Assembly: GCA_903884425.1 (NCBI GenBank)
Contig: CAISEP010000016.1
Span: forward strand, 62,001 to 126,000
Direction: 5' to 3'
Source of the DNA: an uncultured Caulobacterales bacterium
GTDB lineage: Bacteria > Pseudomonadota > Alphaproteobacteria > Caulobacterales > Caulobacteraceae
DNA length: 64,000 nt
The notes beneath the pieces were generated by a model, which ran no database searches, was not told the DNA's origin, and saw nothing but the letters and a program-made list of their open reading frames with translations. Position numbers and translations under genes: made by a program. Positions 1 to 8,235 of the stretch are shown here, in pieces (the stretch's first letter is position 1; every line of letters starts with the position of its first letter).

Positions 1-421
1 TGGGGTAGGTGATCGCCGTCAGGAGGGCCGCGCCGCGCCGGCCGTCCGTGCCACGCTCCGCCGTCAGGGTCGCGTAGCTCCCCAGCACGGTCAGGCCAAC
101 CCAGCTCGGCTTGCTGAACGGCAGGAAGAAGGTCAGCAGCGCCCCGGCGCAGACGAGGACATCCAGCCGGGTCGCCGGCCGCGGGTCGCCGCGGGCCAGC
201 CAGATCATTCCGAGGAAGAAGGCCGCCCAGACGATGACGCTGATGGCGAGGCCGTTCATCAGCGTCGTGGCCAGGCCGTTGGTGACCACGTGCCAGGCGG
301 TCTCGGCGAAGGCGGCATTGCAGAAGCCGGCGAACAGCACCGGCGGCAGGAGGTCGGACCGCCGCCACCCCCGGATCAGGCCGGAGCGGCCGGTCGCTTC
401 AGCTTGCGGAAGTGTTGACAT
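1..421 (-). CDS. Possible exosortase/archaeosortase-family membrane protein (partial)
   Basis: Only the first 140 residues are visible; the gene reads leftward out of the window. Hydrophobic segments lie at about residues 25-47, 55-77 and 87-101, followed by a short charged loop and another segment. The stretch from about residue 83 (TRLDVLVCAGALLTFFLP, then SWVGLTVLG) resembles the N-terminal part of short alphaproteobacterial exosortases; that is family memory, not a search result. The catalytic Cys and Arg expected of an exosortase would lie beyond the edge and cannot be checked. The ATG at 421 overlaps the preceding gene by 23 bases. That gene's product ends in a sorting-signal-like tail, which supports the call. 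The alternative is an unrelated polytopic membrane protein. Confidence 0.45.
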   Translation of the reverse strand, partial: MSTLPQAEATGRSGLIRGWRRSDLLPPVLFAGFCNAAFAETAWHVVTNGLATTLMNGLAISVIVWAAFFLGMIWLARGDPRPATRLDVLVCAGALLTFFLPFSKPSWVGLTVLGSYATLTAERGTDGRRGAALLTAITYP

Positions 422-779
422 GGGCTTCGCCACCCCGTCGGCGGTGGCGGGACCAGGTGACCGCCGCGGCGGCAACGCCCAGAAGCACAAAGGGCAGGCC
501 CACACCCTCGAGCGGGCCCGGGACGCCCCGCGCCTGCAAGTCCAGGGCCAGCTGGAGCTTCGCCGTGTCGAGGGCTACCCGCTCCGCCTCGTAATCGGGC
601 GTGCCCTTGGTATCCAGCAGAAGGGCCTGCTTGTCCGCCTGGATCGCCGCCTTGTCATCGGCAATGACGGTCGGGTTCACCGGATCATGGGGCGTCACCG
701 TCACCGGAGAGGTCGCCGCGGCGGGAAAGGCGATGGCCACCACCGCTGCGGAGAGGGCCGCCAGGACCGGGAGACGCAT
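399..779 (-). CDS. Small secreted protein with PEP-CTERM-like C-terminal sorting signal
   Basis: This 126-residue protein has a signal peptide at residues 1-22 (hydrophobic core, then AAA). A charged, Asp/Lys/Gln-rich helical stretch follows at about 40-84. The tail carries VPGP (86-89), a hydrophobic helix (about 93-109) and an Arg-rich cluster (111-115). This tripartite tail is the layout of PEP-CTERM/exosortase sorting signals, and VPGPxxGxGLP is a variant I associate with alphaproteobacteria. The tail continues 11 residues past the Arg cluster, which is longer than usual. The ATG at 779 is preferred over an in-frame GTG at 788 because GGAG stands 8 bases before it. Its stop lies inside the start of the possible exosortase, so the two are probably translated together. 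The mature function is unknown. Confidence 0.65.
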   Translation of the reverse strand: MRLPVLAALSAAVVAIAFPAAATSPVTVTPHDPVNPTVIADDKAAIQADKQALLLDTKGTPDYEAERVALDTAKLQLALDLQARGVPGPLEGVGLPFVLLGVAAAAVTWSRHRRRGGEAHVNTSAS

Positions 780-957: not shown

Positions 958-1671
958 CTAGAAGGCACCCGGATCGAAGGGCGCGCGGACAAACGTCTTG
1001 GCGATCAGCAGGATATCCGCCCCGATCGACCAGTTCTCGATATATTCCACATCCATCCGCACGCGGTTGGCCATGTCGGTGAGGCTGCGGATCTCCCCGC
1101 GGAGCCCGGACACCTGCGCCAGCCCGGTCAGACCCGGCCGGACCATGCTCCGCACCCCGTAGTCACTGACCTGGTTCAGGTAGTAGAGATCGTGGCTCAC
1201 CGCATGGGGCCGCGGCCCCACCAGGGACATGTCCCCCCGCAGGACGTTGATCAGCTGCGGCAGCTCATCCAGGCTCGTCCGCCGCAGGAACGCCCCGATG
1301 GGCGTGACCCGGTGGTCGTCCCGCGAGGCGTGCCGCACCGGCTCCCCCGGCGGCGAGGCGCGCATGGTGCGGAACTTCAGGATCTCGAAGCTGCGTCCGC
1401 CCAGACCGCCCCGCTTCTGGCGGAACAGCACCGGCCCGCCACCGCCGAGGTGGACCAGGAGGGCGATGAGCAGCATGAGGGGCGAGGCCACCAGCAGGAA
1501 GCCGGCGGACAGGCCGACATCGAGGGCGCGCTTGCTGCGGCTGGAGACCACCCGCCGGGCCAGTTCGGCGCGCCGGGTCAGGGCCGCCACGCGCTGCCGT
1601 TCCGCCGCGCCGTCGGCGTCCGGCGCGACCACGTCACACACGTCGCGTAGGTCACGGACGGGATTCGTCAT
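958..1671 (-). CDS. ExoY/WcaJ-type sugar transferase (initiating glycosyl-1-phosphate transferase)
   Basis: This is a 237-residue monotopic polyprenyl-phosphate sugar-1-phosphate transferase. Enzymes of the family start a polysaccharide repeat by moving a hexose-1-phosphate from a UDP-sugar to undecaprenyl phosphate at the inner membrane. The sequence shows the basic KRALDVGLS entry, a re-entrant hydrophobic helix, GPVLFRQKRGGLGG, FEILKFRTM, the catalytic-site stretch TSLDELPQLINVLRGDMSLV and GPRP. Only the ExoY-like catalytic part is present, without the four-helix N-terminal half of GumD/WbaP. The frame stays open upstream to 1926. The ATG at 1671 was chosen because the upstream 85 residues look non-coding and include Cys- and Trp-rich junk. 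It is divergent from the export genes that begin at 2009. The sugar is not determinable; glucose is likely if the locus is xanthan-like. Confidence 0.9.
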   Translation of the reverse strand: MTNPVRDLRDVCDVVAPDADGAAERQRVAALTRRAELARRVVSSRSKRALDVGLSAGFLLVASPLMLLIALLVHLGGGGPVLFRQKRGGLGGRSFEILKFRTMRASPPGEPVRHASRDDHRVTPIGAFLRRTSLDELPQLINVLRGDMSLVGPRPHAVSHDLYYLNQVSDYGVRSMVRPGLTGLAQVSGLRGEIRSLTDMANRVRMDVEYIENWSIGADILLIAKTFVRAPFDPGAF

Positions 1672-2008
1672 GTCGAAATTCACGGCAGACTGCGGGCGGC
1701 TCACATCCGGGCCTCGTTTGACGAATCGATCCCAAGGAGGGCTCCCCAACACTACCAAGCGCGCCCCGGCGACGAACGCGTTTCCCCCACAGGATGAATA
1801 TTTCTGCGCCCAGAATGGAGCGAAACAAAGGTCGTTTTGTGCATCGCATCCAAATTGATGCCGCAATGCAGCGCTCTCATTCAGACACCCCGTCCCGCGC
1901 ACAGTCCGGGCGGGGTTTCGCCGCATTAACCATAAAATTCGGATGTGTCCGGACCGCTGGTGTGATATTGAGACACGCGAAAGTCACCGAAATTGCAGGA
2001 GTTTTTGG
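1672..2008. promoter_or_regulatory. Divergent promoter region of the exopolysaccharide locus
   Basis: This stretch separates the leftward sugar transferase from the rightward ATPase gene. It is visibly richer in A+T than its surroundings, particularly around 1780-1870 and 1925-2008. It should hold promoters for both directions. An AGGAG at 1997-2001 is the ribosome binding site that fixes the rightward start. A loose inverted pair GTGTC/GACAC flanks about 1945-1977. I cannot assign a named regulator site. Confidence 0.5.
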
Positions 2009-2716: not shown

Positions 2717-2738
2717 CAGCGCCGTGAGAGGCTCCCCC

Positions 2739-3488
2739 ATGCTGAACCGCCTGGCCCGTGCGGCCGCCGCCCACCGCCTGCCGCGCCTCCTGGCCAGCGC
2801 CCTCGTCGTGGCGGGCAGTCTTGCCGCCTGCGCGACCCTGCCCGGCAAGCTGCCACCCGCCCCGCGGTCCGCGGACGGGGGGATCGCGCCCTATCTGCTG
2901 CAGCCCGGCGACATTGTCGAACTGCACACGCCGCTGGCCCCCGACCTTGACGAGCAGGTGGCGGTCGGGCCCGACGGGACGCTCACCTTCCACTACAGCG
3001 ACCCGATCCAGGCGAGCGGCCGGACCCTGCCGGATGTGACGGCCCAGGTCCGCGACAAGTACTGCAAGGACGTCCTCGAGTGCCGGTCGAAGACCTCCGA
3101 CGTGAAGGTCACCCTGCGCAACTTCGTGGGCACGCGGGTCTATGTGTTCGGCGAGGTAGGATCCCCGTCGGAAATCGTCAGCACCGGCCAGATCTCTGCG
3201 GTCCAGGCCATCACCCGGGCCGGGGGCCTGCGGATCACGGCCCAGTCGAGCCAGGCCCTGCTGGTCCGCCGGGACGCGGAGAACCGACCGCACGTCTATT
3301 CCATCGAGATCGCCAAGGCGCTGAACGGCCGCGATCCCGGTGCCGACGTGCTGCTGCAGCCCCTGGACATCATCTATGTCCCCCGCGGGCGCCTCGGAAA
3401 TGTCAGCATGGCGTTCGAATTCATCCGCAATGCCCTGCCCTTCTCCATCGGCACCAGTTTCGGCCTGTCGAACAAGCCGGTCTTCTAG
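2739..3488 (+). CDS. OPX-family polysaccharide export outer-membrane lipoprotein (Wza/GumB-like)
   Basis: This 249-residue lipoprotein exports the finished polysaccharide across the outer membrane. The signal peptide ends in a lipobox (VAGSLAAC). The Poly_export domain follows with YLLQPGDIVEL, then a SLBB-like domain around VYVFGEVGSPSEIVSTGQISA and AITRAGGL, and the closing strand LLQPLDIIYVPRG. A C-terminal amphipathic stretch (FEFIRNALPFSIG) could be the outer-membrane helix. The ATG at 2739 follows GAGAGG with good spacing; an in-frame GTG at 2724 is less likely. It lies between the ATPase and Wzz genes, the usual order for export modules. At this length it fits short GumB-like proteins rather than the larger Wza. 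Confidence 0.93.
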   Translation: MLNRLARAAAAHRLPRLLASALVVAGSLAACATLPGKLPPAPRSADGGIAPYLLQPGDIVELHTPLAPDLDEQVAVGPDGTLTFHYSDPIQASGRTLPDVTAQVRDKYCKDVLECRSKTSDVKVTLRNFVGTRVYVFGEVGSPSEIVSTGQISAVQAITRAGGLRITAQSSQALLVRRDAENRPHVYSIEIAKALNGRDPGADVLLQPLDIIYVPRGRLGNVSMAFEFIRNALPFSIGTSFGLSNKPVF

Positions 3489-3533: not shown

Positions 3534-5450
3534 GTGCCGATCGAATTCAACCGCTATGGCCTGGCGTACCTGGTCTTCCGGCACCTGCGGGTGATCCTGG
3601 CCTGCCTGCTGCTGGGCGTCGGCGCGACGGGGGCGGTGGTGCTGCTGACGCCGCACAAGTTCGAAGCCACCGAGGCGCTGGTGGTCAATTTCAGCGTGGT
3701 GCCGAACGCCACCGCGCCCGGGCTGCGGGGGGGCAATGACGGCGGCGACCACCAGCAGGTCATCGCCTCCTATGTGCAGATCCTGCAGAGCCACATCCTG
3801 GCCGAGCAGGTGGTGGCCGAACTGGGCGCCACCACCCTCTATCCCTCGCACCATTCGGGCCCCCCGCTGTCGCCGCGGGTGACCGCCGCCCTCGACCGGG
3901 ACCCGGAACTCATCGACGCCGTCGCCTACCGCCTGCAGCGGGACATCAAGGTGATGCCGGACACCTCGGCGAACATCCTCGAGATCCACGTGACCAACGG
4001 CTCGCCGGACCGGGCGCTGATGGCCCTGAAGGTGCTGGTGCGCCACTTCCTCGACGAGCAGTCCCAGCTGGGCCGCGACAGCCACCTTCCGTTCCTCCAG
4101 CAGCAGGCGGAGAACTATCGCCAGCAGGTGGCCAGGGCCCAGGGCGCCATCGACACCTTCCAGAAGGCGCATGGCGTGTCGGCCATCGACGAGGAGCGGG
4201 CCTACCTCTTCCAGCAGCGCGCCACCCTGGAGCAGGCGCTGAAGGGGGCCGACGTGCGCATGCACGAGGACCAGTCCAAGCTGGCGGCCCAGAGGGCCAA
4301 CCTGGCCGCGACGCCTCCGGTCAACCGGCTGGCGTCGGAGGACCTCCAGCTGATGGAGGGCAAGGTCCAGCTGGAGACCCTGCAGGCGCAGCGGCGGTCC
4401 ATGACCGGCATCTACAAGCCCGAGAGCGAGAAGATGCGCGCCCTCGACGCCCAGATCGCCAAGCTGCAGGGCATCGCCCCCTCGGACGGCACCATCAACC
4501 GGACCGAGACCAACTCGGTCTACGCCTCCCTGCAGTCGGCCGCCAACGAGACCGAGGCCGACCTCAAGGCCGTCACCAATTCCCGGAACCTGCTGGCCCG
4601 GCAGCTGGCGGAGCTGGAGGCCAAGATCTCCAACCGCAGCTCCCTGCAGGGGGAGTATGACGAGCTCGTGCGCCAGTATCAGCTCGCCGACCAGAACTAC
4701 CGCCAGTACCTCCAGGCGGTGCAGGAGGCGCAGATCTCCAACGACCTCAGCCGGCAGAAGATCAGCACGGTGGACGTGATGGACCCCGCCCACGCCCTGC
4801 CCGGTGCCGTGGCGCCGAACAAGCCGCTGATCCTGATCGGCGGGACGGTCTCCAGCCTGATCCTGGCGCTGGCGGCGGCCTATTGCCTGGAAGTGTTCGA
4901 CGAGCGGCTGAACGCCCCCCGCCAGATCGAGCTGCTCCTCGGGACGCCGGTCCTGGGCTCCCTGGAGAACTACCCCCTCCGCCGCCTGCCCATGAAGCGG
5001 ATCGGCAGCAATGTGGTGCCCCTGCAGACGGCACTCCTGGTGCTGGTGGCGGTGTGCGCGGTGCTGGGAGGACGGGCGGCGGCCCAGTCGGCCAGCAGTC
5101 CCGCCTTCCAGACCCCGGGGATGTCCGGCCAGCTCGTCCCGATGATCCGCCCCGGTAGCTGCCCGGCGGGCTACGGTGTCTACCGCCCCGTGGGCGGGCC
5201 GATCAGCCACCAGACCATCTGCGTGCCGCAGGCGGGCATCAACCGGTTCGCCGGACAGGTGGACTATGGTGCCACGCCCCTCGGCACAGCCAACTGCAAG
5301 GCCAAGGCCGGATCCTATGCCTGCGGGATCGGGGCCTCCCAGTGCTGCGCCGCGGACCGGGACAATCCCTGCTTTCCGGGGGCCTACGCCTGCACCGCCG
5401 GCATGGCCTCGCCCGGCCAGGCCCGGACCGCCTGCTGCATCAGTCACTAG
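3534..5450 (+). CDS. Wzz/GumC-like co-polymerase fused to a cysteine-rich C-terminal domain
   Basis: Residues 1-480 form a polysaccharide co-polymerase: a membrane helix at about 18-40, a periplasmic Wzz domain, a long coiled coil at about 180-400 with the GNVR-like end, and a second helix at about 430-452 after ALPGAVAPNKP. Such proteins control chain length and couple polymerase to export. The last 152 residues are odd. From Met487 (ATG at 4992) comes what reads as a complete Sec signal peptide ending in GGRAAAQ, then about 120 residues with ten cysteines, including two CC pairs. No stop or frame change separates the parts. No convincing ribosome binding site stands just before 4992, so a fusion is more likely than two genes. 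The GTG start at 3534 follows AGGGA. The tail belongs to no family I recognise. Confidence 0.85.
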   Translation: MPIEFNRYGLAYLVFRHLRVILACLLLGVGATGAVVLLTPHKFEATEALVVNFSVVPNATAPGLRGGNDGGDHQQVIASYVQILQSHILAEQVVAELGATTLYPSHHSGPPLSPRVTAALDRDPELIDAVAYRLQRDIKVMPDTSANILEIHVTNGSPDRALMALKVLVRHFLDEQSQLGRDSHLPFLQQQAENYRQQVARAQGAIDTFQKAHGVSAIDEERAYLFQQRATLEQALKGADVRMHEDQSKLAAQRANLAATPPVNRLASEDLQLMEGKVQLETLQAQRRSMTGIYKPESEKMRALDAQIAKLQGIAPSDGTINRTETNSVYASLQSAANETEADLKAVTNSRNLLARQLAELEAKISNRSSLQGEYDELVRQYQLADQNYRQYLQAVQEAQISNDLSRQKISTVDVMDPAHALPGAVAPNKPLILIGGTVSSLILALAAAYCLEVFDERLNAPRQIELLLGTPVLGSLENYPLRRLPMKRIGSNVVPLQTALLVLVAVCAVLGGRAAAQSASSPAFQTPGMSGQLVPMIRPGSCPAGYGVYRPVGGPISHQTICVPQAGINRFAGQVDYGATPLGTANCKAKAGSYACGIGASQCCAADRDNPCFPGAYACTAGMASPGQARTACCISH

Positions 5451-6440: not shown

Positions 6441-6792
6441 GTGTTGCAGCTCGACGACAATGATGAAAATTGACCATTATTGGCGAAGGCCTGAAATCTT
6501 TCCAGCCCCATCTGGCAGACCAACACAGGGCAAAGGCATCACCGATCCACGGTGAGGCCTCCTGCCGACCTACCGACTGACGGCCTCGATCAAGATTCGG
6601 CACTTACTCTGAGCGGATGAGACCGGAGGGTCCCGCCAGCGGCATCAGATGCGGAGAAATCCAGCGTCCGGACATTCCGTCAACCGCTGGATATACTTTC
6701 GCCATTCCATCGGACGATAGATGGCTGGGCAACACCCTATCCGCCCCTTACGAAGGTCAGACCCTTCTCACCGCCCTGGACACGGATCCGAC
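6441..6792. other. Intergenic stretch without a recognisable gene
   Basis: This gap of about 350 bases has moderate G+C and lies between the glycosyltransferase and flippase genes. Open frames across it lack family resemblance and have poor codon use. It probably holds a promoter for the flippase-GT2 pair. I see no clear terminator hairpin. It may also be a scar of past gene exchange, given the atypical gene to its left. Confidence 0.4.
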
Positions 6793-8235
6793 ATGTCAGT
6801 TCGCCGACACCTGGCCTGGATGGGAGGGGCCCAGTTTCTGCTGTTCGTCGTGCAGTTCTTTGGTTCGGTTGCGGTTGCCCGGCTGTTGTCGCCGTATGAA
6901 ATGGGAATATTTTCCATCGCCGCGTCCGTCATCGGCCTGCTGAACATCTTCCAGTCGGTCGGCCTGAACAACTACATCGTCCGGCAGCCGGAGATCACGC
7001 GCGAGGAGATGTCGGTGGTGTTCTCCATCAACGGCCTGCTCTCGATCTTGATCGCGATCCTGATCCTCCTGTTCGGGCTCTTCGGAGAATTCCTGCTGCA
7101 CGATCGCGGCCCGCGCACCGTGATGCTGTTCCTGTGCCTCGTTCCGATCATCGGCATCTTCGAGTTCCTGCCGGCGGCGCAGTTCGAACGCGCCGCAAAC
7201 TTCCGGGCGATCGCCATGATCAATCTTGGAAAGGTGGTGACGATCCAGGCCACCACCATCGCCTTCGCGATGCACGGCTACAGTTTCGCGAGCCTGGCCC
7301 TCGGCCAGATCCTCGGATCGCTCTTCAGTGCCGCCGCCTACAACCTGTCCGGACGGCACCATGTGTCCCTGCGCCTGGCATTCCATGGCTGGCGCGCCAT
7401 CATCCGGTTCGCCATGCAGATGCTGGCCATATCGGGGGTCACGAGCCTTGCCATGCGGCTCACAGACCTGATGCTGGGTCGCCTGGTGGGCCTGAGCGCC
7501 CTCGGGCTCTACTCGAGAGCCACGAGCCTGAACAACATCCTGTGGGAGAATGTCCACCTCGTCATAGGTCGGGTCCTGTTCGTCGAATTTGCCGCAACGG
7601 CGCGGGCCGGGAAATCGCTGAGGAACACCTATCTGACCACGGTGGACATGCTGACGGCGCTGCTGTGGCCTGCCTTCCTCGGACTTGCCGTCATTTCCGG
7701 GCCGTTCATCCTGAACCTGTACGGTGCCAAGTGGGTCCTGGCCGCCCAACCCCTGATGCTGCTGTCGATGGCATCGGTGGTGCTGGTATCCCTGAGCATG
7801 ACCTGGGAGATCTTCGTCGTGCGCGGAGAGACCGCGAGCCAGTCCCGGATCGAGATCATCCGCTCCGGCACGGGCACGGTGCTGTTTGCCTTCGGGTGCA
7901 CCTTCGGTCTCGCCGGTGCAGCCGCCTCCCGGATCGGGGAAGCACTGGTATCCCTCGTCCTGTATCGTCCGCATCTCGATCGGATGACCGATACCCGGCT
8001 GTCGGATGTCGTTCCGATCCTGCTGCGGAACGCCGTCCTGACGGGGATCGCCATCGGCCCGGCCTTCATCATCATGCTGATCCACCATTGGTCGCCCATG
8101 ACGCCGGTGTTCGAGCTCGTCGGCGGCATTGTGGCGGGGGTTGCCGTGTGGGCCCTTGCCCTCCATCTCTCCCGGCACGCGCTGGCGGTGGAGGCCGTGT
8201 CCCTGGCAAGGCGCGCCCGCACCCGCACCGCATGA
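6793..8235 (+). CDS. Oligosaccharide flippase (Wzx/GumJ-like, polysaccharide transporter family)
   Basis: This 480-residue polytopic inner-membrane protein has about 12-14 hydrophobic helices. It opens with GGAQFLLFVVQFFGSVAVARLLSPYEMGIF in the manner of MOP-superfamily polysaccharide flippases; ARLLxPxExGxF is the characteristic first-loop motif. It would flip the undecaprenyl-PP-linked repeat unit to the periplasm, where the Wzy-like polymerase encoded at 14340 joins the units. The ATG at 6793 was chosen because upstream in-frame residues are not membrane-like, though no strong ribosome binding site precedes it. It sits 10 bases before the GT2 gene, so the two are probably co-transcribed. 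Confidence 0.88.
   Translation: MSVRRHLAWMGGAQFLLFVVQFFGSVAVARLLSPYEMGIFSIAASVIGLLNIFQSVGLNNYIVRQPEITREEMSVVFSINGLLSILIAILILLFGLFGEFLLHDRGPRTVMLFLCLVPIIGIFEFLPAAQFERAANFRAIAMINLGKVVTIQATTIAFAMHGYSFASLALGQILGSLFSAAAYNLSGRHHVSLRLAFHGWRAIIRFAMQMLAISGVTSLAMRLTDLMLGRLVGLSALGLYSRATSLNNILWENVHLVIGRVLFVEFAATARAGKSLRNTYLTTVDMLTALLWPAFLGLAVISGPFILNLYGAKWVLAAQPLMLLSMASVVLVSLSMTWEIFVVRGETASQSRIEIIRSGTGTVLFAFGCTFGLAGAAASRIGEALVSLVLYRPHLDRMTDTRLSDVVPILLRNAVLTGIAIGPAFIIMLIHHWSPMTPVFELVGGIVAGVAVWALALHLSRHALAVEAVSLARRARTRTA

Follow-up and report, generated by a model that had tools for sequence, protein, structure and literature searches.

Among the described systems in which a C-terminal tail signal is paired with an enzyme, EpsH/PEP-CTERM (TIGR02602, TIGR02595) is among the closest to the locus considered here. 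It has a multi-pass enzyme with the motifs Cys, Asn-x-x-Arg, and His-x-x-x-Gly (PMC1569441), substrates with a signal peptide at one end and a motif, a helix, and a basic cluster at the other, a polysaccharide locus, and EpsI as a neighbor or fusion partner, and our locus resembles it in these respects, its own enzyme being a probable multi-pass protein. LPXTG/sortase A shares the three-part C-terminal signal and the Cys/His/Arg logic, but its enzyme has an unrelated fold, it belongs to another type of cell envelope, and no LPXTG occurs in the tails described below. GlyGly-CTERM/rhombosortase and MYXO-CTERM/myxosortase are similar in that a tail signal is paired with an intramembrane protease; however, the enzymes belong to other families, and our tails have neither GlyGly nor an invariant Cys. 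For exosortases, the nature of the acceptor molecule is a long-standing open question.

The window, i.e., the whole stretch of DNA that was analyzed (64,000 nucleotides, G000:C16:62001-126000), begins inside a gene that overlaps the gene of a small secreted protein, here termed VPGP1. Reading the contig leftward completes the truncated gene, which encodes an exosortase of 281 residues, and reveals a second protein with the same kind of tail:

L003:11576-12421, minus strand, exosortase, complete gene, 425 bases of it beyond the window
window 1..421, minus strand, first 140 codons of the exosortase (ATG at 421), with Cys190, Arg236, and His251 outside the window
window 399..421, minus strand, overlap between the end of the VPGP1 gene and the start of the exosortase gene, 23 bases, ATGTCAACACTTCCGCAAGCTGA
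window 399..779, minus strand, VPGP1, a 126-aa secreted protein and putative exosortase substrate, with a signal peptide and a C-terminal VPGP tail
window 489..524, minus strand, tail signature VPGPLEGVGLPF, VPGP1 residues 86-97
window 450..503, minus strand, hydrophobic helix of the VPGP1 tail, residues about 93-110, by hydropathy only
window 435..449, minus strand, basic cluster RHRRR, VPGP1 residues 111-115, followed by 11 residues
L003:10290-10595, plus strand, second VPGP protein, 101 aa, with a signal peptide, a body rich in Gly, Asn, and His, and VPGPLEGVGLPFLVAGGALAAVMVMRKR

Judged from its sequence, this arrangement looks like an enzyme paired with a tag that directs proteins to the cell surface. 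We consider it very probable that it is a sorting module, composed of an alphaproteobacterial exosortase of an unnamed subfamily and its cognate signal (VPGPxxGxGL, helix, basic cluster), in which Cys190 would cleave the substrate and transfer it to an exopolysaccharide-linked acceptor.

Regarding the enzyme, it scores 24.4 bits against the NCBIfam exosortase/archaeosortase family TIGR04178 (cut-off 23) and is thus a member of this superfamily; the signature is generic, and none of the named exosortase subfamilies in NCBIfam passes its own cut-off for this protein. Two Rhizobium relatives also reach the TIGR04178 cut-off (R. gallicum, 30.8; Rhizobium sp. WL3, 23.6), and the enzymes of genome G153 (16.8) and of Microvirga (18.1) fall below it. 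In an alignment of nine homologues with 17-81% identity, C190, N233 and R236 (NxxR), and H251 and G255 (HxxxG) are invariant, and this triad matches the EpsH-family motifs (PMC1569441), save that the Cys-x-Gly of EpsH is replaced by C-S-S (in the context G-C-S-S). An earlier note on this DNA had suggested an exosortase whose catalytic half lay outside the window, and had set leftward extension beforehand as the refuting test; the outside half does hold the Cys/Arg/His triad, and the suggestion stands. The sequence evidence therefore supports an exosortase of an unnamed alphaproteobacterial subfamily, outside the EpsH/PEP-CTERM subfamily. Simple hydropathy gives the protein 5-7 hydrophobic stretches. 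No relative was found among solved structures, and the AlphaFold2 model computed without an alignment (pLDDT 42) was unusable, the geometry of the triad not being readable from it. The same genome encodes one more exosortase, a distant one (26% identity, at the TIGR04178 cut-off), in a different polysaccharide region, at G000:C2:255810-256634 on the minus strand (L016:7810-8634), near a divergent frame of 57 codons that ends in PSPAPELSMGLVGLVAVAGAYGLTRLNKRK and is a possible tiny substrate.

The tail of VPGP1 has the layout first read from the window, namely VPGP, a helix, and an Arg cluster on a signal-peptide protein. The second tail protein, whose gene is found 2 kb to the left, next to a VanZ-like one, also carries VPGPLEGVGLPF, and the two proteins (P0001 and P0003) are alike in the tail only (BLASTP E=7e-10). 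The same anatomy, i.e., the motif VPGPxxGxGL, a helix, and a basic cluster on signal-peptide proteins with unrelated bodies, is that of a sorting signal, and it is also found in the tail proteins of Rhizobium and Microvirga. A tail profile search of the genome returns exactly two tails, with the next match at E 0.09. A pattern match on contig C4 (PGPVGAGGLP, one mismatch) has no C-terminal tail among the frames read and is absent from the profile matches. The idea of a single substrate per enzyme had to be given up, as G000 and its sister species G003 have two tails each, the Microvirga plasmid has four, and each Rhizobium plasmid has three; nor is the 11-residue extension of VPGP1 a defining oddity, since about 3 to 13 residues follow the Arg cluster in other members. 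One to four tails were found per genome or record, compared with a median of eight for PEP-CTERM proteins (PMC1569441).

Given the shared architecture, the polysaccharide context, and the presence of an EpsL-like protein, the locus might be taken for an ordinary PEP-CTERM/EpsH-type system whose tail has drifted slightly. Yet the EpsH-type model TIGR02602 has no match anywhere in the G000 genome, no PEP-CTERM tail model, TIGR02595 included, reaches its cut-off for any VPGP protein scanned, and the tail, with PGP in place of PEP and a conserved GxGL behind it, is common to divergent members of one enzyme clade, which makes this reading extremely improbable. Among the tail models of NCBIfam 20, the only match at cut-off for the VPGP proteins scanned is a weak one of the G153 protein to LPXTG_anchor (18.5 bits, cut-off 15.9), in a sequence that lacks an LPXTG motif.

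The motif itself is strongly constrained. Between G000 and G003, the dN of the 12-residue motif is 0.04 in both VPGP proteins, versus 0.28 in the body of VPGP1 and 1.07 in that of the second protein, and by this measure the motif is under purifying selection; moreover, P, G, P, G, G, and L show little or no variation across 16 tails from several alphaproteobacterial groups. Such constraint is difficult to reconcile with the proposal that the tails do no more than anchor small envelope proteins in the membrane by their C-terminus and that the exosortase has some other target, because a plain anchor needs hydrophobicity rather than a particular sequence. Each tail is admittedly a good single helix with positive-inside charges, and its cleavage is something that we infer, but the tail also tracks the enzyme across genomes and plasmids, as described below, and we regard the plain anchor as improbable.

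The putative sorting module sits at one edge of a polysaccharide locus, whose remaining components are the following:

window 958..1674, minus strand, sugar transferase for polysaccharide initiation (PF02397, 1.3e-62), upstream of VPGP1 on the same strand
window 2724..3488, plus strand, polysaccharide export protein (Poly_export, SLBB)
window 3534..5450, plus strand, chain-length determinant (Wzz, GNVR)
window 6721-8235, Wzx-type flippase
L003:11104-11589, minus strand, EpsI-like gene, between the exosortase and the second tail gene
L003:10684-11076, plus strand, VanZ-like gene (PF04892), between the exosortase and the second tail gene
L003:8891-10195, EpsL-like outer-membrane protein (92.5 bits, under its cut-off), beyond the second tail gene

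The sugar transferase bears out the adjacent exopolysaccharide initiation gene of the earlier note, and the link to polysaccharides recurs elsewhere. The export protein, the chain-length determinant, the flippase, and a glycosyltransferase lie on the strand opposite to VPGP1. The chain-length determinant (3534-5450) ends in an unusual Cys-rich stretch past its second hydrophobic segment, and Pfam covers it only in the Wzz and GNVR parts.

The closest counterpart of this locus is found in the sister species G003 (an uncultured Caulobacterales bacterium), the only relative returned by a contig scan of genomes. Its exosortase is 81% identical to the G000 enzyme, and its block is complete, with the exosortase, the EpsI-like and VanZ-like genes, and two VPGP proteins. 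The overlap of tail gene and enzyme gene, already described from the window, is 23 bases long there as well, with a different sequence, which suggests that translation of substrate and enzyme is coupled. The export protein has an ortholog of 89% identity in G003, and of only about 30% in the four other genomes of the genus. These four have neither the enzyme, nor tails, nor a close copy of the export gene, which leaves the locus in two of the genus's six genomes and suggests that the polysaccharide block as a whole is accessory.

EpsH was at one time proposed to be part of a polysaccharide flippase or polymerase. Applied to this locus, that idea would make the membrane protein a part of such a machine and the small proteins subunits of polysaccharide assembly, as might be expected of an enzyme gene that sits in polysaccharide loci and, in this genus, in an accessory one. 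The Cys/Arg/His triad, however, is invariant, the locus already has its own Wzx-type flippase, and disruption of EpsH in Methylobacillus left polysaccharide production unaffected (PMC1569441); we therefore find this role highly improbable.

If the locus is instead a sorting module, its working can be sketched on the exosortase model of PMC1569441. The small signal-peptide proteins would leave the cytoplasm through Sec, their tails keeping them in the inner membrane, where the exosortase would recognize the VPGP segment at the periplasmic face. Cys190, aided by Arg236 and His251, would then attack at or near VPGP, the tail would be released, and the new C-terminus would be handed on to an acceptor associated with the exopolysaccharide that the adjacent locus produces and exports. 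That the acceptor is the neighboring polysaccharide is suggested by the genomic context, and the EpsI-like and VanZ-like neighbors may likewise have roles in sorting. More speculatively, these enzymes could form a distinct alphaproteobacterial exosortase class with few and often tiny substrates, which would be produced concurrently with the enzyme and linked covalently to the exopolysaccharide of their own locus, serving that polymer as dedicated anchors; this is a tentative proposal, which we think rather doubtful as it stands.

The pairing of enzyme and tail recurs outside the genus. When the enzyme was searched against 385 genomes of the class, eight gave a match, and tails of the VPGPxxGxGL form occur in three of the 385 (G000, G153, and G262), all with exosortases of this clade; the 377 genomes without an enzyme match have no tail. 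In both G153 (enzyme identity 35%) and G262 (28%), a small protein with the only tail of the genome, MPGPIAGAGLP and APAPLLGVGLP, respectively, is encoded directly upstream of the enzyme gene. The order of G153 comprises two genomes only, too few to enlarge the set of members. A further tail match, in G334 (E 1.2e-5), is spurious, as it falls within a protein resembling an ion transporter.

Enzyme-adjacent tails had served to build the first tail model, and the profile of the class is for this reason not fully independent. Since the model derived from known cases, an independent test was made by searching plasmids with the enzyme alone, which led to Microvirga ossetica, Rhizobium gallicum, and Rhizobium sp. 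WL3. The earlier tail model, blind to these plasmids, finds four, three, and three tails in them, respectively (E 3e-10 to 5e-3), one of the four in Microvirga being frameshifted. The Rhizobium tails read VPGPEAGAGL or VPGPEAGVGL and belong to secreted proteins of about 160-200 residues. On both Rhizobium plasmids (2.4 and 0.7 Mb) all three tails lie 13-30 kb from the enzyme gene, a closeness that uniform placement would give with probabilities of about 5e-6 and 6e-4. In the class genomes and in the independent plasmid records alike, tails are found only where the enzyme is present. On a tree of thirteen enzymes, the tail-bearing ones need a single change, versus 4.6 with shuffled labels; the support of the tail-bearing group is modest (70/79), six of its seven members group at 96/94, and G262 is placed loosely. 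A second pair of tails in Microvirga (L090:5773-6634) lies beside a VanZ-like gene and transposase-like frames at a site that has no exosortase; one of the two has the variant VLGP, in a frame that seems to be disrupted.

The EpsI-like gene directly follows the enzyme gene in nine loci (G000, G003, G153, G262, G334, G254, G268, R. gallicum, and WL3), and in Microvirga ossetica the exosortase and its EpsI-like partner are one fused protein (L077:6935-8296). No such gene was recognized at G165, in a partner survey that covered the enzyme loci other than G154. Two Cys are invariant across ten EpsI-like sequences. Unlike the EpsI of EpsH/PEP-CTERM systems, the EpsI-like proteins of G000 and G153 match no NCBIfam model, EpsI (TIGR02914) included, and they are EpsI-like in position and in the Microvirga fusion. 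VanZ-like genes stand beside VPGP genes in G000, G003, and Rhizobium WL3, as they do at the second Microvirga site.

Neither the subfamily nor the tail is named in NCBIfam, and we found no VPGP-CTERM or similar tail in the open literature, although an earlier mention in the exosortase review of Haft 2012 (J Bacteriol) is possible. The system adds an unnamed enzyme-and-tag pair to the exosortases, and, with one enzyme and two small substrates (about 100-126 residues) in one locus, offers a much simpler test bed than a genome that encodes tens of PEP-CTERM proteins. It also provides a likely function for rhizobial genes, given that the Rhizobium WL3 record annotates the enzyme, the EpsI-like partner, and each of the three tail proteins as "hypothetical protein". 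Finally, in other exosortase-bearing genomes of the class, nearby proteins carry different tails, SPAPSPGLGLIG and GAPGPDFGLGAALG (L032:228-1199 and L033:5334-5693), which are possibly further enzyme-tail pairs.
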